Source of the DNA: Ceratodon purpureus
Lineage: Eukaryota; Streptophyta; Bryopsida; Pseudoditrichales; Ditrichaceae
NCBI GenBank assembly: GCA_014871385.1
Contig: CM026425.1
Span: 6,177,243-6,241,242, forward strand
Length of the DNA: 64,000 bases
Reading direction: 5' to 3'
Position 1 is the first letter of the stretch. Each line of letters begins with the position of its first letter. Below the pieces are notes generated by a model. It ran no database searches, was not told where the DNA came from, and was given only the letters and a program-made list of their open reading frames with translations. Positions 18,489-61,139 of this stretch are shown here, piece after piece. The position numbers were made by a program, and so were the translations under genes.

Positions 18489-19652
18489 TTAACCTCTAAA
18501 GGCCTTTGAGACCACATCGTAGTCGTGGCAAGCTATTCTAAAGTCCCAAAATTTAATAATTTTCTGAAATTTTTACTGTACATAGCTTTCAATAATAGCT
18601 TTCCAATGCCGCAAATTTCAAAGCATTTGGAGTTATGATGCAAAATTTATGAATTTTAGAAGCTTTGCTCTAAATTTGGACATCCAATGTTTCTGCCCAA
18701 GTTGCCAGGCATTCACAAGGGCACAAAGTGACAAGACAAAATTTCAAAGTGTCTACATTTTTCAAAGTGTCAATATTTCTTTCATCCATATACATTGATG
18801 GCTTTTTTCATCCAATATATATTTTTCATCTAACTAATCATTTTCATCTAATGGGATTGTCTTCATTTTTGAAGTTCTTTTTATCCAAATAACAATTATC
18901 ATCCATAATTCACTTTGCATCCAAAATACTTTTTTCACCTACAATAAATATTACATCTAATCTTTGTTTTTCATCCGGATTTGAGAAATTTCATCCAATA
19001 TCTATGACATGGCTAAGGGTCCAACCACAAGACCCCCTATTACCAAAACTACCCTTCAAAATTAAAGGAATGTATACAACTTGTCCTTCAAAAAATTCTA
19101 GAAGTTCGAATTTTACTTCAATTGCATTGAAATTATTTTTTTTGATTTTTTCTTCTATTGATATGAACATATTGACTGTTTGGATTTCCTGTTGAACATG
19201 TTTAAATTACCCATTTGGTAGTTTTGAAATTGGAGAATGTAAGGCATTTTTAGCACACCTCCATTTACAAAATCAAGAATTTTTTCTCCTTTCCAAGCTG
19301 GTATGGGGCTCAAACTTTGTGAGCATATACCTAACTTCCACACCTATATGAATTAATAACCCTACATATATCAAATCTGTTTGCAATGTGTATTTTTTGA
19401 GCATCAATACCTAGGTGTACCGTTAGAGCAGTATCAAAAAAACTTTTACAGTAAGCTCAAACCTTATAATCTTGCTATTGGTATGGTGGACTGAGCTAAA
19501 ATTTGATACAACTTTTTGGACAAGGTAGGTACAAGATCCCATGGTTAAATATTCCATATGATATCTAATATTCGAAATAAATGGACTTTTATTAGAAGGG
19601 GTCTGTTTTAGGCTGTTTGGCTCCAAAAACACCAAGGGTCTTTTGGGGTTAA
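18489..19652. mobile_element. TTAA-flanked TIR element, copy G (1.16 kb)
   Basis: Opens TTAA-CCTCTAAAGGCC and closes with the complement of TTAA-CCCCAAAAGACC. It carries a block rich in TTTCATCCA motifs (about 18803-19440) that recurs at 58431-59165. No long frame. Assigned to the TTAA family by its ends; its interior differs from copies A-D. Confidence 0.5.
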
Positions 19653-22400
19653 ATTTATATGATATAATAATATATCATTATTTGTAGTCAAATGTGATGA
19701 TACTCTTTTTGTACAATATATCATAGTAATGCAATTGAAGACTATCTTCTTTAAGGATCAAATATATTTACCTTAGTTTGTTTACATTCTTTTCACTAAG
19801 ATGAGAGTATTGCAAAAATCCGGTGAAAAAAATTCAATGAATTTTGAGAAATCATTATTCTTTACCTAAAATTGAGTGTGTTTAGTTAAAATCATAGGTA
19901 TTTTGACATGAAATATAAAACCCTGATTGAACTTAATCCAAAAAAAATGTTTAAATTATCATAACTAGATGTTATGCATGATTAGAAGTTCAAAAATCAT
20001 ATTTAAAATTCATTTGCTATTGAAAATTCACCAAAGTTATAATTTTTGGTTTAGTGTTTTTTTTCCATAATTGATTAAAATCAAAAGCTACATCCATATA
20101 AAAAGATTCGTCTCAAGCATGATATTTAGAACATCAGTAGTTAAACTTTTCTGTTAAACTTCAAGTTAAACGTTTCTGTTGGTAGAAGAATGTTTTTTTA
20201 TTTTTTTTTATTTTTATTTTTTTATATATATATTTTTAAATCTTTTTTAAATTTATTTATAATAAATTTACCATTTTTAATAGAAATAGCTCAATCTATA
20301 GATATTTATTAACATTAAAATTTTCCACAAAAATTCATTTAAATATCTTTTACCTTTATTTTTTTAACTTTTAACTTTTAATTATCATCATTGCTGCTTT
20401 GATGTACGTGACAGCATTTTCATTTGGATTTTGACTAAGTATCTAGTCCACAATCCACTAATAATTATTTGTTTCAAAACAATTACTTTCCATTTTCAAT
20501 GTTGTCTTCCAATAATGTTTTGATCCCAAAATAGCATTAACCTCACATATTTAATAAAAGGTATTTATATCCTTAGATTGAAGCTAAATGTTTTTTGATT
20601 TTAAATTAGTCTTAAAACCTTAACAAATGTTTTTAAACGAGTAGTCCCTGCACTCAATGCCAAGATTACCTCGGTCACTCGGTGATTCTATGTTCGGAGT
20701 TAAACAAACTTGACTACTCCTATGATCTGCAAAACTCCGAGAGAGGTGGAGAGACCTCACAAGATTAGGATTCCAAATGGTGCAAAGTGTGTCTCCGTTT
20801 TATATACCAGTACTACCGGTTTAAGTACCCAAACAAAGTGTACAGCATCCTTAGATTTTGAATTTCAAATGGGGTACATTCCCCAGATTTTGCTTTAGCC
20901 TCACAAGGGAAGTCTGATTGTGCCCCTACCTTCGGTTGAATGATTTTGGATGCTTCCATATCCAAATTCTATGGATATATACTGCTTTACCAAAAGAATG
21001 TAGTTTCCGAAGACCAATAAAAACACGTGACCCAGGCTGCCAGCAGTAGAGGAAAGTATTTCCTGCACATTTCCTTTTCAATTTCCTGCATGCAGGGTTG
21101 AGTGTTGTGCAGGTGAAATATCCGTTGCTACAGTGTTGTATGGTGTCAACCGCGTCGGTACTTGGAGCACATGACATGGCCGATGACATCTGCTTGCAGG
21201 TAAAGATTCCCAACCTGCCATGCTCCAGACTGTCCACTCTGCTTACCAATAACCAGGAAGAACTAAGTTAACTGTGATGTGAGGGAGGGCCACACCACAC
21301 TTACCAACCACTCCAGCTGCCCTGGCAAACTCATATTACCTTCCACAATCTAAGCAGATGAAATTCAAGCTCATGTTTGTGGTGACTGCAAGGCCTACCT
21401 GTTTGATACCAGCCAAGTTCAGCTAGCAGAGAGCTGCTGGAACTACTTGTTGCAAGGTTGCTCACTGCTTTCAGCCACTGTAGTAACTCTTGCCAAATGA
21501 TAATGCCATCTTAGATTCCCGGAGAATAATTAGGGTTAGTGTTTTTTGTGACTGGAGTTGCTGAAGTCCTTGGGTGTGGCCCTCATACGAGCTTAGGTAC
21601 ACCAATAATTTGTGGTGTCATGGAGATAACTTAAATCAATAACACTCTTTTTTGGTTTCAGTAATCCCTTAGTATTTGTTTCTAAATTTTTTTCAATTTT
21701 TAAACCTTCAAAATTTTACTAAAAAATTACTACAATTCTAATTTTTTGAATTTTTTAGGTCCGTATTTTCTATGAGTGCCTGATCTTACATGTATATTTT
21801 TTGACACTAATAATGCCATTTAATCAACAGTAAGGCTCCAAAAGTGTTGATTTCTGGAATTACTACCTTACAATACAACGCAACAGTAAAATATTCCAGA
21901 ACCAATCACCCATGTCCCAAGTCTCCTTCCCGGATCCAACAAGCGAAAAAACCCAGGTTCCTTTTCCGGTACCCTTCTTAGAAACTGAGAACGATTAAAA
22001 TACAAATGCCCCCATCGAACCAAGGTGAAAATCACACCGAGGTAAAAATATCAAATGCTCTTTTTAACCGCACTATCCCATCCACACCACTGGCCCAAAA
22101 AGCCTTCCACTTGTGTGAAAAAATCTTGTGCCAAAAAACCCATGCCAAAAACCACAAAGTCAAACTTTACCGAACCCCAAAAACAGAAAGAAAAGGATCA
22201 CCGAAGTTGCCAAGGATGAGGCAGCCAGTGCAGTAAGTGCTGTCGCTGAATGTACCCAAGGACCACTTCGAGCATGTGCCGGAAACGACATCCGCCCCCA
22301 CGCGCTCCCCCCGCTCCCACCCGAGGGGGTTCCCACGTGGAAGCGCCAGGTGCCCCTCCGGACACTGCCCCCTAGTTCCACCTTTGCTGCCTCCCCCTCC
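19653..22400. other. AT-rich and repeat-derived spacer
   Basis: Includes T- and A-rich low-complexity DNA (20195-20260) and an LTR-like relic (20640-20840). A Cys-rich minus-strand frame at 20926-21249 lacks an ATG and splice context, so I do not call it a gene. DNA from about 22000 becomes C-rich and probably belongs to the promoter of ERF member 4. Confidence 0.45.
20640..20840 (+). repeat. LTR-like relic, copy 2
   Basis: Carries the same ordered motifs as copy 1, including TTTTATATACCAGTACT with ACCGGTTTAA. It is the longest of the three and shows small internal duplications relative to copy 1. Confidence 0.5.
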
Positions 22401-22454
22401 GCACTCCGTGTCTACAAAAGCCCCCATTGTAGTACAATCCTGTACACAGCCAAT

Positions 22455-22775
22455 TTAACCTTCGATCAGCTTCACTGTCCATCAGCTTGAAGCTCCAATA
22501 TCGCACAGCTTCACTGCAGTCAATCAGCTTGAAGCTCCAGCATCGATCAGGTTAACTGTCAATCAGCTTGGAGAAGTTCTAGCATCGATCAGCTTCACTG
22601 TCTATCAGCTTGAAGTAGTTCTAGCATCGATCAGCTTCAAGTGCTGTCAATTAGTTTGAAGTAGTTTGGACAGCATCGATCAGCTTCTTTGTCAATCGGT
22701 TTGAATTAGTTCTAGCATCGATCAGCTGCACTGTCAATCAGTTTGAAGTAGTTCCAGCTGTGCATCGATCAGGTT
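22455..22775 (+). repeat. degenerate ~45-bp minisatellite in the ERF-4 leader
   Basis: About seven imperfect units built from GCATCGATCAGCTTCACTG followed by TCAATCAGCTTGAAGTAGTT. It lies between the likely promoter and the ERF member 4 start. Between 22860 and 23340, GTGATCGGTGGGAG occurs three times and TTTTGTGGTACTT twice, so the whole 1.1-kb leader region has grown by local duplication. Confidence 0.75.
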
Positions 22776-23545
22776 CTTGTGGTAGTAGACGTGTGACTGA
22801 GCTCTACTAGTCAAGCTGGGTTCATGTGATCGGCCATTGGTTTGAGGAGGGTTCATGGTGCTGTGATCGGTGGGAGGAATTTTTAGTTCATTGACGACGT
22901 TGAAAAGGTGGATTTTGAAGTTGGTTTTGAAGTTGGAGTTCTATCAGTTGAAGGTTGAGCAGTGTTGATTCAGTGCCTGGATTGGGATTCTAAGAGGCTC
23001 GGGTTTTGAGGTACTGTGAATTAGAGCCTGGGGAAGGGTTAATTGGTGGTTTGAAGGGTGATCTGAAGCTGGTATTGTGAGGAGACATGGTGCAGTGATC
23101 GGTGGGAGGAGTGTTGAATTTTGTGAATTTAGGAGAGTGTTGAAGAGCTAGAGTCTGTTTTGTGGTACTTACAGTGGAGCTGGGAGATGAATTGAAGGAG
23201 AGATGGGCGATCAGTGACGGGTAGTGATCGGTGGGAGTTGTGTTGGATTTAGTGATTTGGAGAGAGGGTTGAAGTTGGAGTTTGATCAGATTGGGTGAAG
23301 AGGATCCATTTGGGCTGCGTTTTTGGAGGAGTTTGTTTTGTGGTACTTGAGGAGCTGGGAGCATAACTGATCGAGGAGTGAAGAGTATGATCGTGGGTGT
23401 AGACGAATTGTAAAGGCAGTAGACACTCTGTTTTTTGACATTTGAATGTCATTGAGAGTGAATTTGAGTGGTGCATTGGCGTTGTAAAATCGTTGCGGGT
23501 AAGGTTTAGGGGTAGTGAGAGCGAGCTACTGGGAATATTGCGGGG

Positions 23546-24397
23546 ATGGTGGAGAAAGCTCGGCCACAGTCTCTCAATGCGAAGAGAGGAGGGAACTTGT
23601 TGGCGCCTCTGAAGGCAACACCGGGGGGGATTTTGAAGAAGGCGACATCGTCGTCGTTCTCGCCCAAGAGCTCGGTCGATGCAACGTCGGGGTCGCCTCT
23701 GAGCGCTAGAGCGTACAAGGGCGTGCGCATGAGGACTTGGGGGAAATGGGTGTCGGAGATCCGAGAGCCCAACAAGAGGTCGCGCATTTGGCTAGGTTCT
23801 TTCCCCACGGCCGAAATGGCGGCCAAGGCTTACGACGCCGCCGTAGTGTGCCTGCGAGGCCCACTCGCGCCCCTCAACTTCCCAAACTGCCCACCCGCCG
23901 ACCTCCCCCAGTGCACCACGCCGCGCGACGTGCAAGCTGCGGCAGCAGCGGCCGCGGCAGCCTGCGCACCGCCCTCCTCACCCAGCGCTGAAACCGAAAC
24001 CGAAACCCAAACCCAAACGCCGTCCTCGGAGAACGACATCACCCAGTCGCAACAAAACTCTTCCAGCTCATTCGACGACACCACATTGCAGGAAATTGAC
24101 ACCACATTGCAGGAAATTGACACCACTTCTAACTCACACCCTTCCTCCACGTCGAGGACCATGGCGTCTGACATGGAGGACTGGATCAACGCCGAGTTCG
24201 GGTCCCTGGAGCCTCTAGACGAGGTTCGTGCCTTCCCGGAGCTCATGCTACCGATTGACTTCTCCAGTTTCTCAAAGACCCTGGCGCCTCCGAACTTCCA
24301 CGACGAACTGCCTTATCCCAGCAGCGTGACTCATTCTCCGTCGAGTGACTCGGAGGATAGTACTCTTTACGACCACAACCTGTGGTGCTTCACCTGA
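23546..24397 (+). CDS. DREB-like AP2/ERF transcription factor, cluster member 4
   Basis: Intronless, 283 residues. MVEK start, [12 protein letters not shown] at residues 12-23, AP2 domain at about 57-115 ([35 protein letters not shown]), poly-Ala, Glu-Thr and Gln-Thr runs, [10 protein letters not shown] near residue 210 and terminal LWCFT. This copy has both the valine and the glutamate (WVSEIRE) expected of DREB proteins, unlike members 2 and 3. A 21-base unit is duplicated in frame near 24080, giving DTTLQEI twice. It lies 17 kb from the other three, on the same strand, with the Hikeshi and CBS genes between. Nuclear factor by family. Confidence 0.95.
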
Positions 24398-26406
24398 GAT
24401 TGTTACCGTAGTCTCGATCCATAGAAGAAGATTCAGCATCATACGTTGCCGAAGCCGAACACAGTTTGGCAGAGCTCACAGAGCGAGGGAAGGAGGTCGA
24501 TCGAGTCGGACCCCTTTCATGTACACTAAAGCTGTATCCGCGATGATCCCTTCCGAGTTTCGATCGAGAATTCCATGCGAGAGTTGAAATATTGATATTG
24601 CAGAGCAACGTCGACTGCAGTGAGCACATTGCTCCATTTTTTGTAGAGCAGACAATCAGATTAGGTAATTAGAGATTGATATTGATTTTGCTAGATTCTT
24701 TCAAGTGTAGTGTGACTTGATAATACCAATAAGATTTTCAATCCAGATTTGCAACTCTCGAATTTTCGTGTTGATCTCTCTGCTGGAGTCTCATTCCAGA
24801 CTCGGTTGCACTTTGATTGATGAGTTGATTTTCGTTCATGGAGACAAGGAATCACCTCTTAAAATTGCAATCAGTATCCAGAACCTCAATCTATGAGGTT
24901 AGCCTCCCTTAATATTCTGTAATTCTGCCAAGTGTGGTGACCTTGGATATTCGTCTACAAAATGCTCAAGGCTTATAGCTATTTCAACTTCTGCACATTG
25001 CACAGAATTTTCACCTTTGTGAGGGGGAGTGGTAACGACCTTATGGCCGTTTCACTTCAAGCGCATTTGTGAACATTGTGCTCATTGTCACTCGCCTTAC
25101 ACATGTTCTAGGCTCTTAGCCGTTTCACCTCATGGTGTTATGGGCGGAAGGTGAGGGTTCATTGTAAGAATTTGTGTGCATGAGGAGCTGGAATGGTTCA
25201 ATTTGCTCTGTGAAACTACTCTAAAAGGACTTGGCATAGATCCCTATGTAGGGGTTTTTTTGGAATGATTCAATGAGACCTCTGTGAAGTTAATGTGAAG
25301 GTAATGAGCCTCTGTCTGGGTTGGTTCGATAGATAGTAGCTTCATAAAACACTCATGAAAAAGAGACTTCGCATAGAGCTATGTACTGGGGTTTGCTTGA
25401 GCTTGAGCAGCCTGAGAAAAGATTTCATCAGGTTTAGCAAGAAGTAATCAGGTGGTACATGTGATGTTGCTCGGGTGTAAGTTAGCTCGGCAAATATGCA
25501 GATACTTGGAACCAGCAAGGAACAGGCCGTTGCAACCACGAGGACAAAATGTGGTTGAAGGTTTGCTCGTGTGCTACAATATGTTTAATCTGCTATTGGA
25601 ACTTTGCGTTATGTTACATCTATTGGGCGCTGCAAGAAGGTCGTTAGCAGGAGAAGTGTATGCTAGTGTTGGGCCTTGCTCATGTGGTTGGTTGGTTGAT
25701 GGTTTGCAATGGTTTATGATTCATACACAAGCTAGTTACCATTGGTTTTAGAATGCACAAGCAGGTTACCGTTGTTGAAATCTATTTTATCAGCTTCAAA
25801 ATTCAAAGAAGTGTGCTATGCGTACATGGTGAAAAATAATATTTAAGACTCTGGAAAAGAGTAAAGGAATGCAGACAATAGAACTTATTGAAGTCCATTA
25901 TTTAATGCAAAAGAAGCTCTCTTCATATCACCAACGATGTTTATATTTTACTCGCTACACTCAGAATCAGCTGCAAACACTCCATAAGAAGTGTGCTATG
26001 GGTACAAACAGCAACTGTGCCACTTCTTACAACAGAATCAAAGGCATCCCCGTACACTGCTACGTACGAAATACCTCAAAAAAAATACACTTATTGTGAA
26101 GGTCGAAAGGCATAGACGTAAAGATATCTACATGTGTTCCGAAAACCTGTGCTTGGGAACTTGACTCTAAGTTCCATTTGATAACCCTAAGACTTAGTAA
26201 TAGTTTTGGGTTCGTGTTGGTTGTGGATGCTTGTACCGTACACTCTGAAACTGTTATCTACAGATGATGCTCTCAAGTCTGTCTCCAGCCCCAAATTCAA
26301 CCCAGTAGCAGTATGTTGCAGTATGGTCATGGCAGGCCTCATCTACTCTGCATTCTCTACAAAGACGTTGTATCATACAAAGCATACTTCCAGTGTGCAT
26401 GGATTC
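24398..26406. other. convergent 3' flanks of ERF-4 and the ABC transporter
   Basis: No convincing gene. The two neighbours end toward each other, so 3' untranslated sequence of both should lie here. Confidence 0.4.
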
Positions 26407-29400
26407 CTACCGGCGCTGGAAATTGAGGAACTTGATGGCAAAGATGAAGATACCAGCAAAAAATATCATCCACAGGAAGAGAACAGGACCAACAGCAGCA
26501 AGGAATTCGTGCTTGAATCCGAAGCTGTGGCGAAGATAATCCTTCACAGTCATCATATCAGTGGATCCTACGATACGCAATGGAGTATCGTAATCGCCAA
26601 ATTGCGAAGCCACAAGCCCGTATATAGTCCAGGCCAAGGGGCAGAACCAGTAGTACCAGATCCACCAGGGAGGAATGTCCTGCAAATTATGCAAAACAAA
26701 ATGGTTACATAGTTTCAAGATTATTCTCTTTAACATTCCCAGGAAGGTACCTCGTATTTTGAATGACCTTTTAAAGCCAGAGCGGGCGCTGGAAACCCTA
26801 AAGGAAAGCCCGTTCGAGTTCGGCACGCACCGGCTTTACTTGCATGAATCGATGAATCGATGAATTGTTGGGTAAATGAATCGATGAGAGGCTCATTTTA
26901 GGACCCCGCAATCTGAGTATATCATGGTATATCACGTACTCAAAACCAAAAATTATATCTAGATTACGTAAAAGAATATTGTGATATATAGTTTGAGTGG
27001 TGTGCTTACCGGGCGTGGAATCAAGAATCCGGTGAAGAGATTGAAGAGCGTGTAGAAGAAAGCGCTCACAATGGAAGCCAGGATGAAGTTGGGAGTGAGG
27101 GCCACCATCATCATGCCGTAGAATGTGTAGATCAGCAAGCTGATGAACAAGATATAATAATACCAGAAGAACTTTGCTGCTGTCCACTCGAACTGAAGCA
27201 TTGCGTATGTGATGATCCCATATACGGTGGTTTGCACTAACACATATGGAAACTCTATTATCACCTGTTTCCACGTTCCACAGACAAGTTTCCTTATGTT
27301 AGGGATATGTTTTTAGATGACGATTTAGTGTTTGTAAATAGTTGATGTGTTAATGACGGGTTCTGACTTAATCTAGATCTGCACGTTAAAAATGACAAGA
27401 ATGGACATACCTGAGCCAATGCGTATGGTATGGAAGAGTACATTCCAGCAGCCTTCTCCCTGTAGTGGACCGTTCGTTCAATGCTCACCATCGCCTGCAC
27501 TGTGCCAGCGTTGTTGAAGCATATGAAGAGCGTCGAACCGTACAATGCGCCCATAGTGATAATCAATTCTGACGATGTGGAACTGCCACATTTAAACAAA
27601 AATAATTATAAGATCAAGGATTTTTCCAATGTAAGGATCACTTTGAGGGCTGAAGTACAGAAAAATACACAAATTCTTATAACAAACAATTATTATTTTG
27701 TTTCTTGTTATATCTTAATCAAAAAGATGTATCTAGAGCTCACAATTTTTTTCCAACACCCCAGAAGATGCTTCCACAAATAAGCGCCGTGCTGAATGTG
27801 AAGGCTCCTCGAACGAGATTGTAGTCTGGGCTCCTCCAATACGTCAAATTTTGCTTCCAAAGGATGCACCAAAGCTGCTGAATGAAATTCAGGGGGAACT
27901 TTGTAGGAAAGCTCAGATCCGTCGAGCCTGGGGGTGGTACACGCAGTTCGTTTACAAGAACTTTGTTGCGTCTGTTCAACAGCAGCACTTGGCAGGTTAT
28001 TGATAGAATAGGCTCAGTTGAACAAGATCAACACATGATTAGTAAAGAATATTTGCAGCAGATCATTGGGAGAATACATAAAAATCTCCTTCCTCCTCAA
28101 CCAGCATGATTTTTCAGAGTAAATTTCCAAGTGAAGAAAGGCTGGATGGTTCATACTGGTAAAGCTGCGACTTCAAGTAAATGTCCGCGAAGTCCACTCC
28201 AAGTTGCATCTCCTCTTCAACGCTGGAGACTTCCAACATCCATGTGGCTGGATTGTACCCATCCGAAATTTTGGCTACTCCAGGTATCACCTTCACATGG
28301 ACAGAATCCCAGTTTAGGTCGCTAAATATATCTACTCATTCAGCAACGAAGTGTTACGAGACTTATGGCCTAGAGCTTTCTCCGAGAACCGTGATCATCA
28401 AAGTAATGGCTACGTTCTCATGTTCTTTCATTTTCATGACTATGACAAAAAGGTATCTGGATTGATGAACAATAACATGAATAATATTCAGAATGCGTAT
28501 TAAAGATGTACCTCAAAATACTCGACAAGCTTTTTGGAGTTGTGGCCCAATTCGCCTGCGTAGATGACTTGGCCTCCTCGCTTCAACAACAGAAGCTGCA
28601 TCGAGAATAAGACGAAGTGAGAAATTGCCTCCAGGGTAATGATTAAGAAGTTGTAAGATCCACCTTCAACTCGATTTGCAACAACCTGCAACCAGACTGC
28701 CAACAAATATATCCTTTTAATTAACAGAAGTAGTACCAGTGCAGAAAGCACTAATTTGCTCACCTCATCAAAGGCTTCAAAGATGTCGATGCTAGGTTGA
28801 TGAATGGTGCACACAACAGTTCTTCCCGTATTGACCGTGTTTCGTACACATCGCATCACAATGGCTGCTGCTCGTGCATCGAGCCCGCTCGTGGGCTCAT
28901 CCATAAATATGATAGATGGGTTGGCAACCAACTCCACTGCAATTGTAAGCCTTTTCCTTTGCTCTGTTGACAACCCAGAGATGCCTGGCAGACCAACAAG
29001 GGCATTCTCCAGCGGCTTCAGTTCCACCAACTCCAGCACCTCTTCCACAAAGGCCTGCACAAATGATGGATGTCAGGCCAGATTGTGTGTGATAAACTTC
29101 TCTATTTGAACCACCAATAAGCCAGAACTACATTGCTCATGATGTTTTTCTGGAAAATATTTCTCGAGCCTATACTTGCTTATCAGTTGCCGTCATGTCT
29201 TGCTCACCATTTTACTCTCAGCATCGATCTCAGCTGCAAGACGGAGCCATGCAGAGTATATGAGGGACTCTCGCACTGTTATTTGAGGAGAATGAATATC
29301 AGTCTGCTCGCAATAGCCAGAGATCCGGGCAAACGTTTCCTGGTTCTTCGGATACCCCGAAATTCGAATATCGCCTTCAATATATCCACCAGTCTTTCGC

Positions 29401-37042: not shown

Positions 37043-37044
37043 TA

Positions 37045-38010: not shown

Positions 38011-39679
38011 TTAACCCCTAAATGGCCAAAGTCCTTGTAAGGTAACTTACATTGATAGATGGATGAATGAAATCTTCTAATCACTTTGGACAGTGTGTAA
38101 GCAGAGGATGAAAGGAGTCAGACAACTCCCAGTTGAGGATGGATGGACCGGAGTCAGACAACTCCAGATTGAGAACATGTGCACTGGAGTTAGACAGCTC
38201 TATATTTAGTGCATTGGAGTCAGGCCACTCCAAGATTGAGAACATGTATACAAGAGTTAGACAACTCAAGATGAGGTACACTAGAATTAGACTACTGATA
38301 GTAGTGAATTATCTTTACTCTAAATATAGGAGTAAAGATAGTGGTGAATTATCTTTACTCTAGATATAGGAGTAAAGTTCTAAAAGAGTCTCTGAGTTAA
38401 AGAGATAGAAGGATCTAGAATGATCTATGGATTATCTTTACTCCAGATATAGGACTAAAGAAGATGGAAAGATCTAGAAGAGTCTCTGAGTTGAAGAGAT
38501 AGAAGAACCTAGAAGGATTTGTCGATTATCTTTATTCCAAATATAGGAGTAAAGGAGATAGAATGATCTATGAATAGGCTAGACTCTGGGACATAGCCTG
38601 AGATAGAGTGTAGTTCCTTTTGGGAAGGAACTAATATATAAAGGCTCGGGGGTGAGATGGTGAGACACTTCTTTGATGATCACTTCTCTATGGTTGGGTG
38701 GTGAGCCTTCAGTCAATATATTTTGATCTTTGTAGTTCTATTGTAGTTTATTGAGTTTTTATCTTTCCCTTGTCTTATTTGTCTTTTTCTTTGAGAGTTG
38801 GTGGCAAACCTGTTGGGAGGTTTGTTACAGTCCTAGAATGGATTTTTTGTAATTTCGGGCAAGTTCCTATGTTGTCAATTTTAGATGTGAGTTTCTGAAA
38901 TTCTTTAGACATTGGAAAAAATATTTATGGTGCCTAAAGCGGTTCTTCTTACTTCTCGGAAAACTCCAAAATTTTGATACACCCTTCAACTACCCTTTGG
39001 GATTTTTAATGCAAGTAACTAACATGATTGGTTTTGAGATTATTAAAAGAAAATTCTTATATTATGGAAGATTTTCATTTTATAAGGAGCCAAAGTTTTA
39101 TCACTTTTTTTTGTCAAGCATGAAAAAAAATAAAAAATCTTTAACACATGAAAGATAGAGATTTTGTTCTTTTTTCCTCTTTTTTTATTTTTTTTACTTT
39201 TAACTTCAAGAACAGACATAGAACTTTGTTTTGACCACATGAATTTTTATTCTAACAAAAAATGGTTTGTCAATTAAAAAGAATGAGTATTAACAAAAAT
39301 ATGAACTTATGTTCCTTATACAATGTTTTTACAGTGCTACTCCTTTTTCACAAGTAATTAACATCATGTACATAATTTTAGTACAAGACCTTCAATATGT
39401 ATAGTCCAAAAACATTACTCAAAGAGAAGTCAAATTCAGGTGATCTTGTTTTGAAAGGATAAAATAGAAAAATGTTTCTTACTTCAAAGTCTATAATCTT
39501 TTAATCCACGTGGTCAAATTTATTGAAATTTTTGTGTATGATCTTTTAGAAGTCTTAAGTGAGATCCTACCGTTAAAGATGAAAAAGCAATTTTATTTTG
39601 GTTTGTATACTCTTGCTTCTGAAATGATAGTTTTTGGAGTGGTTTTGGTGAGAAATGGTCACAACTGATTAGGGATTAA
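38011..39679. mobile_element. TTAA-flanked TIR element carrying a solo LTR
   Basis: Left end TTAA-CCCCTAAATGGCC. Its sequence resumes after the LTR with GTCCTAGAATGGATTTTTTG, matching the sub-terminal GTCCTAGAATGG of copies A and B. The right end is TTAGGGATTAA. Without the LTR the element is about 870 bases, the size of copy A. Ten bases separate it from copy A. Confidence 0.65.
38036..38829 (+). mobile_element. 794-bp solo LTR with GTCCT target duplication
   Basis: Begins TGTAAGG and ends GTTTGTTACA, flanked on both sides by GTCCT (38031-38035 and 38830-38834). A TATATAAA at 38635 is the likely promoter. The upstream part holds two tandem arrays: about five units around GGAGTCAGACAACTCC (38114-38290) and four units of TTTACTCCAGATATAGGAGTAAA type, each palindromic (about 38308-38555). 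No internal retrotransposon sequence remains, so this is the product of LTR-LTR recombination. Confidence 0.9.
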
Positions 39680-39689
39680 GACTAGTATC

Positions 39690-40541
39690 TTAACCCCTAA
39701 ACGGCCAAGGGTGTTTTTCATCAAAACTGCCTGAAAACAGCCCCTCTCCAAAGCAAGGTGGATTTTGCAAAGTTGGGGTCTTATTTAGTACATCTAACCG
39801 TAAGATCTTGTAGCTAACTTCTATGTCTACATGTCCACCAAATCTTACACACTCATTCCTTACCAATTGCATAATCGTAACGTTCAAAGTTGAAAAACAA
39901 GTTTTTTTTCCTTGCGCAAAAAGGGAACAACAGAGTTTTGAAGACCCAAAAAACCATTTTTTTGCATTATGGATTTTGGGGGTTTTGATGCACGTCAAAG
40001 AAAATTGAGTTAGCTTATTGTGTTAAAAAAAAATTATATTCAAAAAAGTTGTGGAAGGTTGCCAAAAAAATCATTTTCCGCTAGGGGGTATACTGAAATT
40101 CACAAACAAAGGTCGTTTTTTGACAATAAAAATAGCATATGAATAAATTTTGGATTGAAAATCCGAACAGAGGGAACATGCTCTACTACTTTCTCTATAC
40201 ATAGAAATTTTTATTTTTGAAAAATATGAAAATCTCAATTTTTGGTGGAATTTCAAAGTTTCGTCTTTAGGCAGTTTTGGGCAGTTTTGGGCAGTTTTGG
40301 GCAGAAATTGCTGCATTCATAGTGGCTGAGAGCCTGCCCGTGGAAGGGCCTTTTATGCTCAAAGAAGCATAACTTTTTCCCACTTCATCCAAAAAAAATC
40401 AAAAAATATATCCCCATAAACCTCTTGAAAATACCTTTCTCCATAAAAAATTTCAAAAATTTTCAAGTAAATTTGAATTTTCAGAAACCTGCCCAAATTT
40501 CAAAAACACCCATTCTAGGACAATGACCGTTTAGGGGTTAA
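39690..40541. mobile_element. TTAA-flanked TIR element, copy A (852 bp, intact ends)
   Basis: Opens TTAACCCCTAAACGG and closes with the exact complement CCGTTTAGGGGTTAA. Interior landmarks are GGCAGTTTTGGG repeated three times and GGATTGAAAATCC. No coding capacity. It serves as the reference for the family. Confidence 0.85.
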
Positions 40542-47007: not shown

Positions 47008-47039
47008 TGCTAATTCTTCAGACTACTCCACTACCCTTC

Positions 47040-50629: not shown

Positions 50630-51270
50630 TTAACCCCTAAAGTTGAAAGGCCTCAAAACTGACAAAAATCCTCAAAATTAGACTTTTTTAATACAAGGTG
50701 TAAGTTTTTAAGTTTTGATGTATTTTTGGGGAAACAACCATAGATTCTAGAACCTTACTTGTACATGTATATGCACCCCAAATATTATATTCAAACTCCT
50801 TATCCTTTGTGAGATCCTAACGTTCTAAGTTGAAAGAAAAGTTTTTTTCCCCTTGTTGCAAAATGAGTTTCAAGTGTTTCGTGAGCCAAAAAATCTAATT
50901 ACTAAAGCTAATCAGATGTGAGGCTCTTCAAATTCTTGTTCCTAGATGAGTTAGAAATATGTTCACGGAATTTTTTACCTCATACGACCTACAAAACCTA
51001 AAGAAAATCTTGATTTTTCACACGGAGGTATGCTGAAATTCAAATGCAAAGGCCGGTCTATGATAGTAAAAAAGGCATACAAAGAAATATTGGATTGAAA
51101 ATCCAAGCGGTGAGATCATGCCTTCAAATTTTATTTACATGTAGAAAAAACAAAACTTGAAAAAAAGTAAAATCTCAATTTTTGGTGTATTTTTGAAGTT
51201 TCTATGATCTAATTAATTTAGGGCAGATTTTGAGCATATAATGCAGTTTTGGGCAGATTTTAGCAATCCC
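50630..51270. mobile_element. TTAA-flanked TIR element, copy D (diverged, right end unclear)
   Basis: Left end TTAA-CCCCTAAAG. In the same order as copy A it shows the GTGAGATCCTAACGTTC, ATTGGATTGAAAATCC, TCTCAATTTTTGGTG and TTTTGGGCAG landmarks. The right terminus could not be found, so it is probably truncated or decayed. Confidence 0.5.
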
Positions 51271-51689
51271 AAGTAGAGTTTTCAAATTTTGACTGCGGAT
51301 ATCTCCTAAAGTATGAGGAATTTTGAAGCATGAATGGTCTTGTTAGAAAGATATGAAAATTTCCCATGTTGTGCCAAAATTAGAGCAACATTTGGTAAAA
51401 TTTAACTCATAGGGAGCCTAACCGGATCCTAAATCTTACTAAAACTATTGAGTTGATGCTTTAATATGACATCAATTTCAACTTCCAGCAACACACAATG
51501 ACTTGGACATTGAAAAGAATTGAAAAACATAACTACCAAGCATAAAATCTCACATACATGTGCCATATCAGGCTTCATCTACACCCAGCGGGTTTCCCAT
51601 GAGACCTATACCTACCTTGCAACACGGAAGCTTCTCACTAGCTTTTCCAAAAAGCGGTGGCTAAGCGTGTTTAAATGCTATCAGTTTTG

Positions 51690-52180: not shown

Positions 52181-53122
52181 TCGCATCAAAATCTCACATG
52201 GTCATCAGCTAAAATACCTCCACATGGTCCGTGCCTTCTACTCTCTCTATTCACCATCCACAGCAAAGCTATTATCTCCAATGCAAAATTCCAAGGAGCG
52301 CCTCTTATGAGACTCGAATTCACTTCGACTCGGAAAGAAGAGCAAAAATCACAAGAAGATGACAAGACACGCATATAGAACGAGGAATTACATATTCAAA
52401 TCCAGACCTAATGCTTGAGAAGTCTTCTTGTTAAAAGCCCTTCGTCAGGGTTTGACAAAGCCTCATGATCCATAATGGATTGAAAGACTTCTAAAAAAGT
52501 TATTCTTCTAATATGTCCTATAAACTATAAGTCATTAAGTAATTGATTTGTATTATGCCATTCATGTTTTCAAATAGTAAAAAAAAGTTAAAAAGTCAAA
52601 TTTGAATGTAAAATAAAGAATTCATGTTTTTAACAAATAAATCATAGAGGTTTTGTCATTTATCTTCTTAAATGATTTAAAATTTGAAAAACCAAAAATT
52701 TAAAGTAAAATTAAAGAATAATATTTAAATTTGATGATTAAAAAAAATTTAAGTTAAAAAATTAAAAAAATTAAAAAATTAAAACCTAAGTTTCAATTTT
52801 AAATTATTATTTTAATTTAAAGTTTTAAAAAAATTAAAGAATAAATTCAAAAGATTTTTTTTAAGAAAATCAAAAATAAAAGCAAAAAGTAATATAGAGC
52901 ACAGTCATTCATTATTGGAAAGATAAAAAAATATAAACTAGAATATTTAGCATTTAGTCTTTAAATGAAGTTAATAACCAATCCAAGCCATTGCGACAGA
53001 CTAATAAAAAAAATTCAAAAATAGACACATCAAATAACGGCCAATCAATCACTGACACTCATGTATTGATGCTTCAAATGTGTCGTCGTAAGAAGCTCTT
53101 TGTCAAGGGTTGACTTATCCAT
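52181..53122. other. very AT-rich spacer
   Basis: No gene seen. Includes long AAATTAAAA-type low-complexity DNA at 52560-52900. Confidence 0.4.
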
Positions 53123-53125
53123 AAT

Positions 53126-53473
53126 AGTGGGAGTCACACAAGGACCATTCTCTTGAGAATGGGCTTTCCTACGGAAGCGGAATGCACATGTGGCGGCCAT
53201 TCCCTTTCCATATGGAAGCCCATTCTCCGAGAATGGGCCTTCTCCATTCCGGCCCTCCCAGCACCTGGAATGATGAATTCCCAAAGGTTTGTATTAAATG
53301 CAGTGGATAGACTTACCTGTGATAAACATGAACCAATTCATTGTCAGGAAATGCATGCGGGGGGTGTCACACGAGATTCGTCATGGAATCAATCCCATTT
53401 GCTCCAGGTATTAAGGAGGTGCATTCTCCGAGGATGCACTTCTCAGGGAATGCACCCTTGTATGACTCCCACT
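53126..53473. mobile_element. 348-bp inverted-repeat element with internal palindromes
   Basis: Begins AGTGGGAGTCACACAAGG and ends with a near-exact complement, CCTTGTATGACTCCCACT. AAT flanks both sides (53123-53125 and 53474-53476). Inside are several short palindromes on the theme CCATTCTC..GAGAATGG. No transposase. Confidence 0.65.
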
Positions 53474-55141
53474 AATGGATTAATTGACTTATCCATAGAC
53501 CATTTCTATGAAACTATTTTAAATTTTAATTTTACCAATACAAAATCTTCAGGAACTAGGAATCTATTTATAAAGGTGGGAGAAGATTTTGTAAGCAAAC
53601 TTAATATTGATCCCACAACCTTGAGTAGTTTTCCTAATACTTTTCAAATAATTTCTAAAGATTTAGTATATTGTTCATTGATCCCTTAGCTTTTGGTTTT
53701 AGGATTTCATTCGAAACTTTTAGCCTGCCAAGAGAGCGGTATGAACATTATCCTAGAGACCGAGCGCCAACGAGAAGAGATGGATTTGTTGCGACAAAAT
53801 GCTCCTCGTAGCGTGGAGATTCGACCTAGGAGCGAGGAAAGGCTGTAGAGTCTAGAGTTTCGCTCAAAAGGCATGAAGCTTGAGTCCAAGGTTTTGGAGC
53901 TGGAGTCAGAGGTTACTGAGCTTCAATTATTAATTAGATAAACTATAAATCATAAAGAAATAAAATTACTAATTAATATAAACTTTATTTGACATCTATA
54001 TTCATAAGTAGAAATTTAAAATTAAAATTAAAATGTAAAATAAAGCACTAAAGCTTTTAAATTATGAAGCATTCATGTTTTGTCATTCAAGTTTTTAAAT
54101 AACTAAAATAAATATATAACTTTAAATATAAAATTAAAAATTAAAAATTAAATCAACGACTAATTTAAAGAATAAAATTTAAAATTTAAATTAAAGAGTT
54201 GAACTAAGAATAAAATTAAGAAGTAAAATCAAAAAGTAAACTATAAAATTTTAAAACTTAAAAGTCAAATAAACAAAAATCATTTATTATTTGTAAATAA
54301 AATAACCTAAACCAGAACGTTTTCTCTCTCAATGAAGTTATCAAACAATCCAAGCTATCTCGATTTGCAGTCAAAAGAATCAAAGAAGATGGATAATATG
54401 AGTTTAGATGATCCTATTGTGTTCTTGTAGACCAATGCTGCTATAATCATCCGATGATCGTTGTTGTGGTCATGGTGGTCATCCAACCCCACGAAATCCA
54501 ATCATGCGGCAATGTTGCAACTCAACCGACATCAAGTTTAATTGTAAAAATGGCCGTCCAGAAGCCATTGATATGTACTGCTTCGACACTTGTTACTTCA
54601 GAGTTGGAATTGCAAGCATTCACTCCTTTATTCACAATGCAAGCCTTGAGTTCTTCACCTATATTGGTTTGATACACTTTAAACAATAATCAATTCATTT
54701 ACATACTTTTATAAACTATAAACAATAAGACATGAAGTAATAGTGTTGTATTTTATAAGCTTTAATTTTTATTCATTTTCTTAAACAATAAATAATAATT
54801 TAAAGAACAAAGAACAAATAAAAATAAATGTAAAAATAAAAAGTAAAAACAAAAAATAAAATTAAAGATTAATTTGAAGAGTAAATTTAAAATAAAAATA
54901 TTAAATTGAAATATTTGATATTAAAATTTAAAATGAAAATTTAAAATGAAAATTTAAATTTAAATTTAGTACTAAAATTAAAAAGTTAAATTAAACAGTA
55001 AACTATAAAAAATTAAAAATCAAAAGAAAAGAAACCAAAATCATTTATTATTTGTTAGTAAAACAATATAAACTAGAATGGTTCCATTCTAAGTAAAGTT
55101 AAGAACCAATCCAAGCCGTCCCAATTTGCAGTCAAGAGAAC
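53474..55141. other. AT-rich spacer
   Basis: Mostly A/T low complexity. One short Cys-rich open frame (54447-54689) is noted among the findings but not called a gene. Confidence 0.35.
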
Positions 55142-56847
55142 CAAGCCCGTAAAGGACAATTTGGCAAAGTGGGGCTTTTCCAAAGTTTGGGCATGTACCT
55201 GCGGATGCAATTTGAACTCAGATTTTATAAAAAATTCAATGAAACTAGGCCTTCATGAGAGCTTTGTGTCGGTATTTTTTATTCTCAATTCCAATGTCAG
55301 GATGAAAAGTTATTGACCACTGAACCGCAAAAGCTCCTCCAAGGGTAGTAAGTTAGCCAATGAGAATGACAGTGAATGCAGCAAATTCTGCCCAAAACTG
55401 CCCAAAATTACCAAAATATGCCCAAAGACGAAACTTTGAAATTCCACCAAAAACTTGAGATTTTGATATTTTTCAAAAATAAAAATTTCTATGTATAGAG
55501 AGGCAATAGAGCATGTTTCCATGGTTCGGATTTTGAACCCCTAAAGGACAATAGTCCTAGAATGGGCTTTTTTGAAACTTGGGCATGTACCTACGGTTGC
55601 AATTTGAATCGTGATTTTCTGAAATTTTAAATGGAGGTGTGCCGTTCCAAGAGCTCCGTGTGCATATTTTTATTTTTCAATTGCGACATTGAGATCAAAA
55701 GTTATGAAGGTTTAACTGTCAAAAGCTGCTCGTTGGGCAGCTGCTGAAATTTTCTAAGCCACTGTGAATGCAGCAAATTCTGCCCAAAACTGCCCAAATC
55801 TGCCTAAAGATGAAACTTTGAAATTCCACCAAAAATTGAGATTTTGATATTTTTCAAAAATAAAAATTCATTATTATAGAAAAGGCAGTAGAGCATGTTT
55901 CCACTGTTTGGATTTTCAATCCAAGAATTTTTCATATGCTATTTTTATTGTCAGAAAAACGGCCTTTGTACGTGATTTTCAGCATACCTCCTAGCAGAAA
56001 ATGATTTTTTTGGAAACCTTCCACAACTTTTTTGAATATGATATTTTGTGGATATGTACCTAACTCAATTAGGAACAATAACATGGAGAGATTCATTCCA
56101 TATCTACTTTAAAAAATGGTTTTTTGGGCCTTCAAAACGCTGTTGTCCCCCTTTCTTCGCAGGGAAAAAAAACTTTGTTTTTCTACTTTGAACGTTATGA
56201 TCTTGCAATGGGTGAGGAATTAGTGTGTAAGATTTGGTGTACATGTAGACATAAAAGTTAGCTACAAGATCTTACGGTTAGATGTACTAAAAAAAACCCC
56301 AAGTTTGCAAAATCCACCTTGCTTTGAAGAGGGGCTGTTTTGAGGCAGTTTTGATGAAAAATACCCTCAGAACCTTAGGGGTTAGTCCAAATTTTTTTCA
56401 TATGCTATTTTTATTGTCAAAAAACGGCCTTTGTTTGTGAATTTTAGTATACCTCGTAGCGGAAAATGATTTTTTTGGCAACCTTCTACATTTTTTTTGA
56501 ATATAATTTTTCTAATAGAATTAACTAACTTAGTCTTCTTTGACGTGCATCAAAACCCCCAAAATCCATAATGCAAAAAAATGGTGTTTTTGGGCCTTCA
56601 AAACTCTGTTGTTCCCTTTTTGCACAGGAGAAAAAACTTGTTTTTCAACTTTGAACATTACGATCTTGCAATTGGTGAGGAATGAGTGTGTAAGATTTGG
56701 TGGACATGTAGACATAGAAGTTGACTACAAGATCTTGCGGTTAGATGTACTAATTAAGACCCCAACTTTGCAAAATCCACCTTGCTTTGAAGAGGGCTGT
56801 TTTCAGGCAGTTTTGATGAAAAATACCCTCAGAACTTTAGTGGCTAG
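55142..56847. mobile_element. TTAA-family element, copy C, split by copy B
   Basis: Lies in the opposite sense to copy A. Left end CCCGTAAAGGACAA, right end complementary to CCACTAAAGTTCTGAGGG. The four bases outside are decayed (CAAG, CTAG). The sequence stops at GGTTCGGATTT, is replaced by copy B, and resumes at TCCAAATTTTTTTCATATG exactly where copy A continues. Confidence 0.7.
55534..56385. mobile_element. TTAA-family element, copy B, nested inside copy C
   Basis: Ends CCCCTAAAGGACAATAG and CCTTAGGGG, bordered by TGAA on the left and TTAG on the right. Length 852 counting those borders, equal to copy A. Same orientation as its host. No coding capacity. Confidence 0.8.
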
Positions 56848-57230
56848 GACACTGTGACTTATTGATGAGCCTATTGTATGCTTGCACTCGTTGATTCAGA
56901 GTTATAATTGTTCAATCAAGAGTTTTGATGAATGGACAGAGGTCAACAGACTTAATCCTTAAAAGTCAAACCTAGAGGGGCTGGGTTTTTTTTTGAGAGA
57001 ATCTTGCTCATAACTTACACTCCATTATACCAAATTGGATTTTTAGAATGTCAAACTGAGCACCTTAAAGAGATCTATACTTTCTTAGAATAGAGCTCAA
57101 GCAAATTAAAAATAGAATAATGCTTAAAATGGAGTTTAAAAGAGATTTTGGGAGTGGTATCAGGAAAGCATATGACGTTTAAGGATTAACTGAGTTGGAG
57201 ATAGGAAGAGATTGCAGACCCTCCATTATT

Positions 57231-57315
57231 GTAGACCTTCAATATTATCAAGTTGCAGACTTGTAGACCTTCAATATTATCAAGTTGCAGACTTGTAGAC
57301 CTTGCACATTATCAA
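57231..57315. repeat. 32-bp tandem repeat, about 2.6 units
   Basis: Two exact units (57231-57262 and 57263-57294) starting GTAGACCTTCAATATTATC, then a diverged partial third. Confidence 0.85.
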
Positions 57316-57421
57316 TTATTGTCTCAGGTTTGTTAAGCCATGGCTGAAAACTAGAAATCCTGGATGCACCCAACACAATGACCGGAATGACCTCACTGGA
57401 ACTACATGTGCACGTCAAGAA

Positions 57422-58180
57422 TTAACCCGTAAACAACCAAAAACTGGTCGTTTTCATTTTTCCAAGTTCCATAACTGTCATCCAATTTCCAAATGACAAT
57501 TTTTCATCCATTTTTTTTTCATGTTGTAAAGTTGTGAGAAATCTATCTCATCTCATTAACAAATTCTCAAAATAATAATTTCATGAATTTTACTGCCTCC
57601 TTAAAGTCAAAAAGATCAATATCGTGTGTATTCAAAAATTCCTTGATACAGACAGCTAAAACACAATTTTGACTATTGGGATGATCTTTTTTGCAGTTGA
57701 GGTAAACCTATGAAATGTAGTTTGGAAAATTGCTTTTCCAGTCCAATTTAAAATTTTGAAAAATACCTAAAATTGAGTGATTTATAGCTGGTATAAGATG
57801 AAGGGGTATTACCGTGGCTACTTCTTGATTTTCCACGGTTTTAGGTTTTTTAATCATATTGTTGAATTGAAACATAAATTTTGAGAACGGTAACTATTAT
57901 AAGGTTTTTCGTTTTCATATTCATCTATGGTTAAAATTTCATAATTTTTTAGTATAACCTATATTTGATATGAATTTTCTTTGTTTGTTTTGATTTGAAA
58001 ATTTATATTAATTACATTTTGAAACATTTGATTTTGATAAAGTTATTGCTTGTAGATAACATGTGTATCTAGCTGAGAAAAGTTTAAAACTCATATTTTA
58101 AATTACTTATAGTAGCAAAATAGAGCATCCAAAGTCAAAGTCTATTTCTGTGGTCATAGGCTCAGGCATTTGGGGGTTAA
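57422..58180. mobile_element. TTAA-flanked element, copy E (759 bp)
   Basis: Left end TTAA-CCCGTAAACAACC, right end complementary to TTAA-CCCCCAAATGCC. The interior is AT-rich and unrelated to copies A-D as far as I can see; it is assigned only by its ends. Confidence 0.45.
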
Positions 58181-58430
58181 GGTCATCTAAGTTCTTCAGC
58201 GATGGCCCTGAAAGGATGTAATAATCAACATATCTCAGTTCTCGCTGTAATCTACACAAGATACTTGGTCGGGTAAATGGCAAATATTAGTATTGAAGTA
58301 TGTATATATACTTCTCTGAAAACAAACAGAGAAGATGAATAAACTTTTAAATTGATGCAAGGCTCAACTTCCTGGTTTTTTGAAGGCTGAGGTGGGGAAT
58401 TTCGTATCAAATGTTGTACATAGATGACAG

Positions 58431-59165
58431 TTTTCATCCAATAGATATTTATTATTCAACTAAAACTTTCCATCTGAAGGGGTTGTCTTCATTGCTGAAA
58501 TTCTTTCATCCAAATGATAGTTATCATCCATAACTCAATTTCCATCCCAAATACTTTTTTCATCTATGCAAAATATTACATCTAATTTTTATTTTCATTC
58601 GGGCTTAACGAATTTCATCCAATATCTATGACATGGCAGGGGTCCATCCACATGACCCCCTATTATCAAATATGCCCGTCCAAATTAAAAGAAAATATAC
58701 AATTTAAACTTCAAAATATTCTAAAAATTTGCATTTGCATTCAAATTTGTTTGGGTACTTTCTTTCATTGACCTTAACATATCTACCGTTCGGATTTTCC
58801 AATTGGACGTGTTTAGATTATCCTTTTGGTAGTTTTAATTTTAAAGAATGTAAGGCAATTTTAGCACACTTCCTTTCACAAAATCTAGGATTTTTCCTCC
58901 TCCTTCAACCCATATGAGGCTCAAAGTGTCCCTTTGTTCTGTGGGCACTAGGTCATTGGCTCTACGAACAAACACTTTATTCACGTTGGCTCTAATGGGT
59001 CAGTGTTTCTATCTATCTATCTATTTTTGAGGCTCAAAATTTGTGAGCTACACCTAACTTCTACACCTATAGGAATTGATGACCCTTTATATATCAACTG
59101 TGTTTCAATGTATACTTTTTGGCATCAAAACTTAGGTATATTCTTGGAGTAGTGTCAAAAAAATG
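58431..59165. repeat. TTTCATCCA-rich repeat, second copy
   Basis: Colinear with 18803-19440 inside copy G, sharing TTTCATCCAATATCTATGAC and GAATGTAAGGCA among others. It is interrupted by a 102-bp insertion. The ends of the larger element that should contain it were not found here. Confidence 0.7.
58926..59027 (+). mobile_element. 102-bp SINE-like insertion with 11-bp target duplication
   Basis: Flanked by TGAGGCTCAAA on both sides (58915-58925 and 59028-59038), a duplication absent from the empty site in the 19.3-kb copy. It ends in (ATCT)n followed by T's. A related copy in the opposite sense lies at about 59245-59345. The pattern fits a short, perhaps 5'-truncated, retroposed element. Confidence 0.75.
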
Positions 59166-59244
59166 ACTTTTATTATGCTCATTATGTACATAAGAGAACC
59201 CATTTAGTGAATATTGCAGTCATAACCAAAACATTATACAAATA

Positions 59245-59345
59245 AGATAGATAGAAACTCTGGTTCAAATGAGGGCCGGCGTGAATACAACGTTTGATCA
59301 TTTGGTTAATGAACCAATGCCCACCACACGAAAGGCCACTAAACC
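59245..59345 (-). mobile_element. second copy of the SINE-like element
   Basis: Read on the minus strand it shares TGGGCATTGGTTCATT-like sequence, TATTCACG and the terminal TTTCTATCTATC with the 58.9-kb insertion. More diverged, and no duplication is evident. Confidence 0.5.
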
Positions 59346-59429
59346 AAACTATTCACGCCTTTGGGAAATAGACACTACATTGAACCTACAAGAAATAACT
59401 AACTAGTATTGTATAGGAAGTAAGGGTTG

Positions 59430-59620
59430 CGGGGATGGGAGGGATCGTGCGGGGAACGGTGTGGGGTAGTATGGTAGTCCATAGTCGGAGTGTGGGAAAA
59501 GGAAGGTCCCGGGTTCGATATGGCTGGAGTGGGTGGGCTGGGTAGGAGGGGAAAAAGACAAGGGATTTACACCATGGGGAGAGACTAATTGTTTTCTAAC
59601 TTGCGTCTATGGAGTAGGAT
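59430..59620 (+). repeat. possible tRNA-derived SINE head
   Basis: TAGTATGGTAGTCC (59467) and CCCGGGTTCGATA (59508) resemble the A and B boxes of a tRNA-type internal promoter, 35-45 bases apart as in tRNA genes. It does not fold as a functional tRNA, and the tail is unclear. Confidence 0.3.
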
Positions 59621-60592
59621 GGAAGCAGCATGGTGAATAACGATAGTGTTGAGTTCTTTGAACGTGTGTGTGATGGCTAGTTCAGGGATGTTGAACATGG
59701 TTTTTAAGGTTGCCATAGAAGGGTTATGCGTTGTACCACAGGCACCCGCGGTGAGGACAATGAGGGGATCAACAAGCATTATGCACTCGTCCTATGTGGT
59801 TCACAAGACTCTACTCTCAACCTATATTGCCGCGTCTTAGCTCATTGTAATCATAATAAAGTTTTAACTTCTCATCAACCACCTTCTTATTGTTGTCATA
59901 TTCAATTGTTGTCCAAATTTCAATTTGTTTTTTTGAAAGTTGATTTATTGGATAAAAATTAAGACTTCTTTCCAATCTAATTTGAAATATGTCGATCAAA
60001 GTGAAACTCTCCCCATAAAAATATTTCCAAAGTAGAATACCTCAACATTGTCTTTGTTTTTGTTGCCCAAAATTCTCTTTTCTTATAGAGCTATATGTAT
60101 TTTAATATTTTTAGAATATATCATGAGTTTTGTTTTATTGTATTATTAATTTTAATTCAAAATAGTCAAGATGCATAGAAGAGCTGGATGGTTACTAAAT
60201 CCCCAAAAAACTAATTTTGGAATAGGAATATCTGCAATATTAGTTTTGCTATGAGTTGAAAGAAAACCAAGCTTTTACACATCAAACATAGAGAGACCAC
60301 TAAACCTTTCCATGTTTTTTAGCTATTTAGAGTGAGAAAATAAATTTACTTCTAATCAAAGTTCATGTTACATAGCAAATGACTTTAAAATAGCATATGA
60401 CTTTACAAATAATTCTTAAATTTCAACAGGAATTGAAAGCTTACAAAATCTTGCATTCCTCAATCCTATGAAGCTTTTGTGACAATCATTTCCATCCTTG
60501 AAAAAGAAATGGATAATTCCAAAATATTTGAAAGAAATATTGTCTAAAAACTTAAGGGTCCAAATAAAATGACAAAACCGCATGATGAACTC

Positions 60593-61139
60593 TTTACCCT
60601 TAAAGGCCAAATTGACCCGTTTTAGGTCAATGACATTTTTCAGAGAGCAGTTACTCTCTAATATTTTTAGGTTAGATTTTTTTTATAAAGTAGCTTGACA
60701 AGTTTATTTCATTAATCAACAGCTGGATTTGATATTGCTTTATTGGATAATTCAATAAAAATTTGATAATAGATGTAAGTGGGTTGGATTCGTTGATTTC
60801 TAGTTCAAAATGGCCATCAAAATAATGAGATTTTAATTCAAGTTCATGAAAAAATTCTTCAAAAATTTAGGTGTGAGATACACACATTTCAAATTCATTT
60901 CATGAATATTTTCTCAAAAATCATGAATATTCTCTTCATAGCCTAATTCAGAAAAAAATTGAATATTTTGTTTCGAAATTATAGAAAAAATATAGTGACG
61001 TTAATAGTAAATCCAACCATACGGATTTGGCCTAAAAATATGAAGCTCTAACTTTAATTTGATCATAAAGACCTACATCGATTTTATAATAAATCTTTGA
61101 AAATGGTTCAAATCCAACAAACCTGGCGCCAGGGGTTAA
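60593..61139. mobile_element. TTAA-flanked element, copy F (547 bp)
   Basis: Left end TTTA-CCCTTAAAGGCC, right end complementary to TTAA-CCCCTGGCGCC. The left end follows the family consensus; the right agrees only in its first five bases. Tentative. Confidence 0.35.

Follow-up and report, generated by a model that had tools for sequence, protein, structure and literature searches.

TTAA-bounded repeats of the land plant Ceratodon purpureus are very probably non-autonomous piggyBac elements with full-length relatives in the same genome

Results

The window analysed here is a 64,000-nt stretch of the Ceratodon purpureus genome (GCA_014871385.1, contig CM026425.1, positions 6,177,243-6,241,242), and the genome searched alongside it comprises 362 Mb in 151 contigs. 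Ten open frames of the window were scanned against Pfam, revealing AP2 domains in three genes, an ETR1-type ethylene receptor, a Hikeshi-like protein and an ABC2 transporter; we take the AP2, ETR1-type and ABC gene set to be that of a plant. The same window holds nine elements with CCC-type inverted ends, which together cover ~11.7% of it (element D being counted to 51202). The original prediction described eight such element starts as a family of candidate piggyBac-like miniature inverted-repeat transposable elements (MITEs), and all eight carry the described kind of end. The ninth, absent from that earlier list, lies at 56952-57189 with TTAA on both sides.

Both ends are present in eight of the nine elements. 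The end word TTAACCCCTAAA occurs exactly (12/12) four times in the window versus not once in 20 order-1 Markov simulations, and at 11 or more of 12 matching positions nine times versus 0.5 times on average and at most three times in the simulations. The elements had been described as mostly bordered by TTAA, and this holds on both sides for five of the nine (A, B, C, I and G), but the borders of H (TTTA/TTAA), E1 (TGAA/TTAG) and E2 (CAAG/CTAG) have diverged, and D has a left end only. In the window elements examined, the longest stop-free stretch is 110 amino acids.

Element A (18489..19652; no strand is assigned to this or any other feature) is ~1.16 kb long, has TTAA on both sides and the ends CCTCTAAAGG and CCCCAAAAGA, and contains no stop-free stretch of more than 100 amino acids. 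A segment at 58417-58925 is 77% identical to part of the A interior (18791-19314) and has no recognisable TTAA-CCC ends. The copy starting at 38011, element B (38011..39679), is a real element and proved to be complete: its right end is at 39679 (reverse complement TTAA-TCCCTAATC), TTAA stands on both sides, and it is split by a solo long terminal repeat (LTR; 38036..38829) of 794 bp that reads TGTAAG...TTACA (TG...CA) and has a 5-bp repeat, GTCCT. Element C (39690..40541) measures 844 bp between TTAA sites. If the letters of the original prediction follow the order of its list, this is the copy said to have decayed borders, which is not what we found: C has TTAA on both sides and a perfect 11-bp inverted repeat, CCCCTAAACGG. 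Element D (50630..51202) has an intact left end, TTAACCCCTAAAG; as had been claimed, its right end was not found, and 51202 marks the point at which similarity to E1 stops. Comparison of the window with itself showed the D interior to be homologous to C (71%) and E1 (67%).

The copies at 55142 and 55534 are both real. They are not independent, as element E1 (55534..56385; 844 bp; flanks TGAA/TTAG) is inserted inside element E2 (55142..56847; flanks CAAG/CTAG) and splits it. Just to the left of E2 lie related direct repeats at 54117-54383, 54882-55144 and 52694-52989, one of which stops at the left border of E2; no clean empty site is readable there. Element I (56952..57189) is 230 bp long with ends TCCTTAAA and TTAA on both sides, and element G (57422..58180; 751 bp) has TTAA on both sides and the ends CCCGTAAAC and CCCCCAAAT, its interior matching no other window element in the self-comparison. 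Element H (60593..61139) is 539 bp long with TTTA/TTAA borders, and another locus of the genome, L017:1447-2867, looks like a further copy of the H family with a nested C-like element.

The same ends are abundant beyond the window. The pattern TTAACCCCTAAACN{10,20}TTTG was found at 140 places genome-wide versus two for the reversed control. The left-end 24-mer of element C, TTAACCCCTAAACGGCCAAGGGTG, has 415 genome places at two or fewer mismatches, and the 20-mer of TTAACCCCTAAACGGCCAAGGGTG without its TTAA has 196 exact places, with none for the reversed control in either case. Among the first 100 exact 20-mer places listed, compared with the exact 24-mer listing over the same stretch (C1 to C6:86753433), TTAA precedes the end in 91. 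In a 260-kb set made up of the window and 20 loci picked for carrying the end pattern, exact TTAA stands before 49 of 59 CCCCTAAA words, 20 of the 49 being preselected, and the bases beyond TTAA carry at most 0.33 bits. The conserved end CCCCTAAA includes CCCTAAA, which we take to be the plant telomere unit; chance and a functional meaning are both possible.

A genome search with PF13843 yielded 998 first-look candidates; 116 were scored, and every one of these exceeded the cut-off (253-289 bits). The matches lie in open frames of up to 1207 amino acids, with no stop within the match in 93 of the 116 listed; none of the listed places is inside the window, and none of the 14 control genomes matched. 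We fetched eight of the 116 scored loci: four were taken first from the best-scoring ones, and four more because they formed pairs of equal score. Six of the eight (L029-L032, L035 and L036) are bracketed by exact TTAA followed by CCCCTAAA/CCCCTAAT, CCCCCTAA or CCCTTAAA ends, with perfect inverted repeats of 7-15 bp that start with CCC. These full-length elements of 3.9-6.8 kb, whose ends fall into the classes TTAA-CCCCTAA(A/T), TTAA-CCCCCTAA and TTAA-CCCTTAAA, bear out the proposal that a DDE_Tnp_1_7 transposase gene with the same kind of ends could be found in this genome. Between their TTAA sites, the autonomous elements L029 and L030 span 5863 and 6768 bp, respectively, the latter with a nested MITE-sized element, while L031 and L032 (ends CCCCCTAAC) span 4629 and 4638 bp and are 95.5% identical to each other. 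L035 and L036 (3894 and 3893 bp; ends CCCTTAAACGTCA) are 99.08% identical in an alignment of 3904 positions that runs from one TTAA to two bases past the other, and no similarity was found between their flanks. This 99%-identical pair suggests recent movement. The flanks of L030:600-7375 read as inverted repeats of one another around TTAA (GTGACATTTTTGCA / TGCAAAAATGTCAC), so the L030 insertion may have landed within the loop of a hairpin-like element.

The eight transposase cores form four lineages, with the other three 34-36% identical to the first. A phmmer comparison of the predicted protein P0003 with solved structures recovered the T. ni piggyBac transposase (6x67/6x68; E 3.6e-31) and piggyBat (9c0f; E 3.4e-25). 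The DE, DN and GVD blocks of P0003 align with those of 6x67, and three aspartates within them, D656, D743 and D860, are invariant in all eight proteins. In piggyBac, three aspartates are catalytic. The PF13843 match begins at residue 513 of the stop-to-stop frame in P0002 and at residue 461 in P0003, and P0003 residue 458 aligns with residue 130 of 6x67. CxxC-type cysteines are visible in seven of the eight alignment rows.

The transposases could be animal or fungal contamination of the assembly that has nothing to do with the plant repeats, given that animals are the best-known hosts of piggyBac and that L031, among the eight fetched loci, is on a contig of 45 kb. We regard this as very improbable: the other seven loci are on contigs of 17 to 110 Mb, the same ends sit in the window among the AP2, ETR1-type receptor and ABC transporter genes, window element C has 208 bp at 80% identity in common with a transposase element, and the repeat nested in L030 has relatives in L022 and L028. 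A MULE/SWIM-like frame at L022:4586-7336 was considered as a partner of the elements and rejected, since within the stretch fetched it is not enclosed by any TTAA-CCC pair. This frame has three stops, and its DUF5575_C and SWIM matches are both under the cut-off.

Each window element was compared with L029, L030 minus its nested repeat, L031 and L035, using 50 shuffles per element. Element A (narrowly), the right part of B, C, E1 and both halves of E2 beat all 50 shuffles. C scored 169 bits (reached by 0 of 50 shuffles); over its right 208 bp it shows 80% identity to one end of L029, and its left ~380 bp resemble the opposite end, in L030, at 59%. E1 scored 75.4 bits (0/50) and the right part of B 64 bits (0/50); the left 25 bp of B are 96% identical to L030, and thus both B ends match the two ends of this autonomous element. 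By its sequence, A appears distantly related to the L029/L030 lineage. A, B, C, E1 and E2 are therefore MITEs in the sense of short, non-coding elements with ends common to an autonomous element. The ends of I resemble L014:4689-4930, the left 43 bp of which match L035/L036 at 91-93%.

We compared filled insertion sites with uninterrupted relatives at three nested insertions. Where E1 interrupts E2, the filled copy reads GGATTT-TGAA-[E1]-TTAG-TCC versus GGATTT-TCAA-TCC in three relatives (E1 itself, C and D). The other two sites came from a search of 56 candidate end pairs against the sequence collected by then, in which four alignments crossed a junction; one of these, L014:4689-6260, aligned with its own locus and was set aside. 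The element at L017:1892-2757, within the apparent H-family copy, reads AACTTG-TTAA-[element]-TTAA-GCTAC versus AACTTG-TCAA-GCTAC in window H (244 aligned positions, 85%), and L022:1401-2332 reads TAG-TTAA-[element]-TTAA-GGAAC versus TAG-TGAA-AGAAC in L011 and TAG-CCAC-TCAAC in L015. The proposed single-site check, run here on diverged repeat relatives, thus gave one 4-bp site in the empty copies and two in the filled copies in three of three cases, which fits a 4-bp duplication. If the element starts at CCC the length of the duplication is 4 bp by arithmetic, the palindrome leaving one to two bases ambiguous.

A TTAA-specific 4-bp duplication is also made by Kolobok, another superfamily to which the window elements could be assigned (available text of PMC9587614). 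Kolobok termini are given there as 5'-RR...YY-3', whereas every end of the nine window elements opens with a pyrimidine pair: TC in I and at the right end of B, CC elsewhere. As the linked transposase is moreover DDE_Tnp_1_7 and not that of Kolobok, we rejected this assignment and give it almost no weight.

Several further repeats lie in the window. A near-perfect fold-back at 18087-18227, CACTAGTAGAAA...TTTCTACTAGTG, has 64-nt arms (98%) with GTT flanking each side and looks like a CACTA-type MITE, and an inverted repeat at 17462-17781 with 140-nt arms (94%), a 40-nt loop and the ends GTAGGGGTG / CACCCCTAG is possibly another MITE. At 7078-8601, an inverted repeat of ~216 nt (82%) surrounds ~1.1 kb, and units of ~42 nt form a tandem array at 22457-22776.

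Discussion

We are highly confident that the window elements belong to the piggyBac superfamily as non-autonomous (MITE-type) members, and that full-length elements of several lineages in the same genome encode transposases with three catalytic aspartates (DDD) that would recognise CCCCTAAA-type ends. We observed the ends, the use of TTAA and, by comparison with related empty sites, a duplication of 4 bp. We also observed full-length elements that have ends of this kind, long open frames and an invariant set of three aspartates, and sequence in common between these elements and A, B, C, E1 and E2. The piggyBac-like identity proposed for the window elements is thus supported by linked PF13843 transposases within TTAA-CCC ends and by the 4-bp duplication. 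Two findings would count against piggyBac, empty sites lacking such a duplication and linkage to a transposase from a different superfamily; neither was seen.

A number of observations weigh against this interpretation. Element A is above the shuffles only narrowly, at 39.7 bits to L030 versus a shuffle maximum of 35.4 (reached by 0 of 50), and D, G, H and I are not above them in comparison with the fetched autonomous elements, their scores being reached by 31, 31, 6 and 4 of 50 shuffles, respectively. G and H, and perhaps D and I, could accordingly be a different transposon group with convergent TTAA-CCC ends. We consider this improbable, since they have the same kind of 12-base end, the D interior matches C and E1, and the ends of I match the L014 segment tied to L035/L036; with eight of the 116 scored transposase loci fetched, other autonomous partners may be among the rest. 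In the same vein, the idea that one transposase mobilises different passengers stands in part: coding elements whose ends are of this kind exist, but they belong to several lineages that differ slightly in their ends, and no similarity beyond shuffles ties D, G, H and I to those fetched.

Other points against the piggyBac assignment concern the borders and the transposases. The borders of E1, E2 and H are diverged, the E2 site resembling C[A/T]AG, and nine of the 100 compared exact ends have no preceding TTAA. L033 and L034, whose transposase parts are 94% alike, have a transposase frame, and no such ends were found in the fetched stretch. The C-terminal cysteine-rich domain was seen only weakly, with zf-Tnp_2 at 17.7 bits (cut-off 24) in P0002 only of four proteins (E<=0.01), and the AlphaFold model of the transposase core is poor (mean pLDDT, the predicted local confidence score, 41.9) and uninformative.

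None of the empty relatives, furthermore, has TTAA at the site: they read TCAA, TGAA or CCAC. They are diverged copies of repeats and not alleles at orthologous loci, so that the letters of the original target are inferred. As TTAA is a palindrome, the letters alone would look the same after a duplication of TA or of 3 bp if the element were one base longer. By this reasoning, MITEs of two kinds common in plants are also candidates, Tourist (PIF/Harbinger), with a 3-bp TTA/TAA duplication, and Stowaway (Tc1/mariner), with a TA duplication, as either would give identical letters. Duplication length alone is ambiguous here; what led us to reject both kinds, as candidates of negligible probability, is the preference for the whole TTAA, in the partly preselected CCCCTAAA words as well as at the exact ends, together with the piggyBac transposases carried by the autonomous elements with these ends.

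For the piggyBac elements of this genome, we propose a mechanism whose catalytic steps are taken from the piggyBac family. The full-length elements would supply a DDD transposase, which would recognise and pair two CCC-type ends (CCCCTAAA-type), excise the segment between them and insert it at a TTAA that becomes duplicated. Gene-less elements that keep both ends, such as C, would ride along. It is presumably these transposases that moved the window copies; by analogy with known piggyBac elements, movement would be by cut-and-paste with seamless excision. The near-identical L035/L036 pair points to movement in the recent past, and movement may continue today. The variety of termini suggests that several pairings of transposase and end coexist in this genome.

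On balance, we favour the broader view that C. purpureus is a land plant with a large, multi-lineage and recently active complete piggyBac population, of at least 116 transposase places and hundreds of MITE copies, in which piggyBac is an established force and possibly still moving. Coding elements and MITEs with matching ends are present in several lineages within one plant genome, and one lineage seems to have moved recently. This allows a direct test of the activity of a native plant piggyBac. It could also yield piggyBac systems adapted to plants, for use in tagging and in removing markers, and the history of piggyBac in plants, by vertical descent or transfer, becomes traceable.

The published record on piggyBac in plants is split. 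In their available text, PMC10813416 states that piggyBac has been isolated from insects, fungi and plants, whereas PMC4093653 states that it is not in plants; PMC10794571, PMC8086355 and PMC10140906 are further sources on record, and the available parts of PMC4938662 and PMC3823963 are silent on plant piggyBac. Among the literature matches listed, none reported a plant piggyBac population with coding copies by its title or the start of its abstract, subscription papers being partly outside the search. A 2023 review counts piggyBac among seven MITE superfamilies identified in angiosperms (PMC10004981), but its available text treats MITE classes only, whereas in C. purpureus coding elements with ends of the same kind are present too.

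The elements described here are like those of the piggyBac superfamily, including T. ni piggyBac, piggyBat and other animal elements, in their TTAA 4-bp duplication, 5'-CCC terminus and DDE_Tnp_1_7 domain with three aspartates; the terminal motifs given in the available part of an animal survey are CACTA, CCCTC, CCCTT and CCCAT, with CCCTT the most conserved, and a few of the duplications listed there are not TTAA, such as TTAG, CTAA and TCAA (PMC10813416). Kolobok is alike in its TTAA duplication and differs in its 5'-RR termini and its transposase. From the known piggyBac superfamily, the C. purpureus elements differ in their plant host and in the several transposase lineages in one genome, which are 30-36% identical to the first. 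They also differ in a long frame upstream of the core in P0002 and P0003, which is putative as coding sequence.

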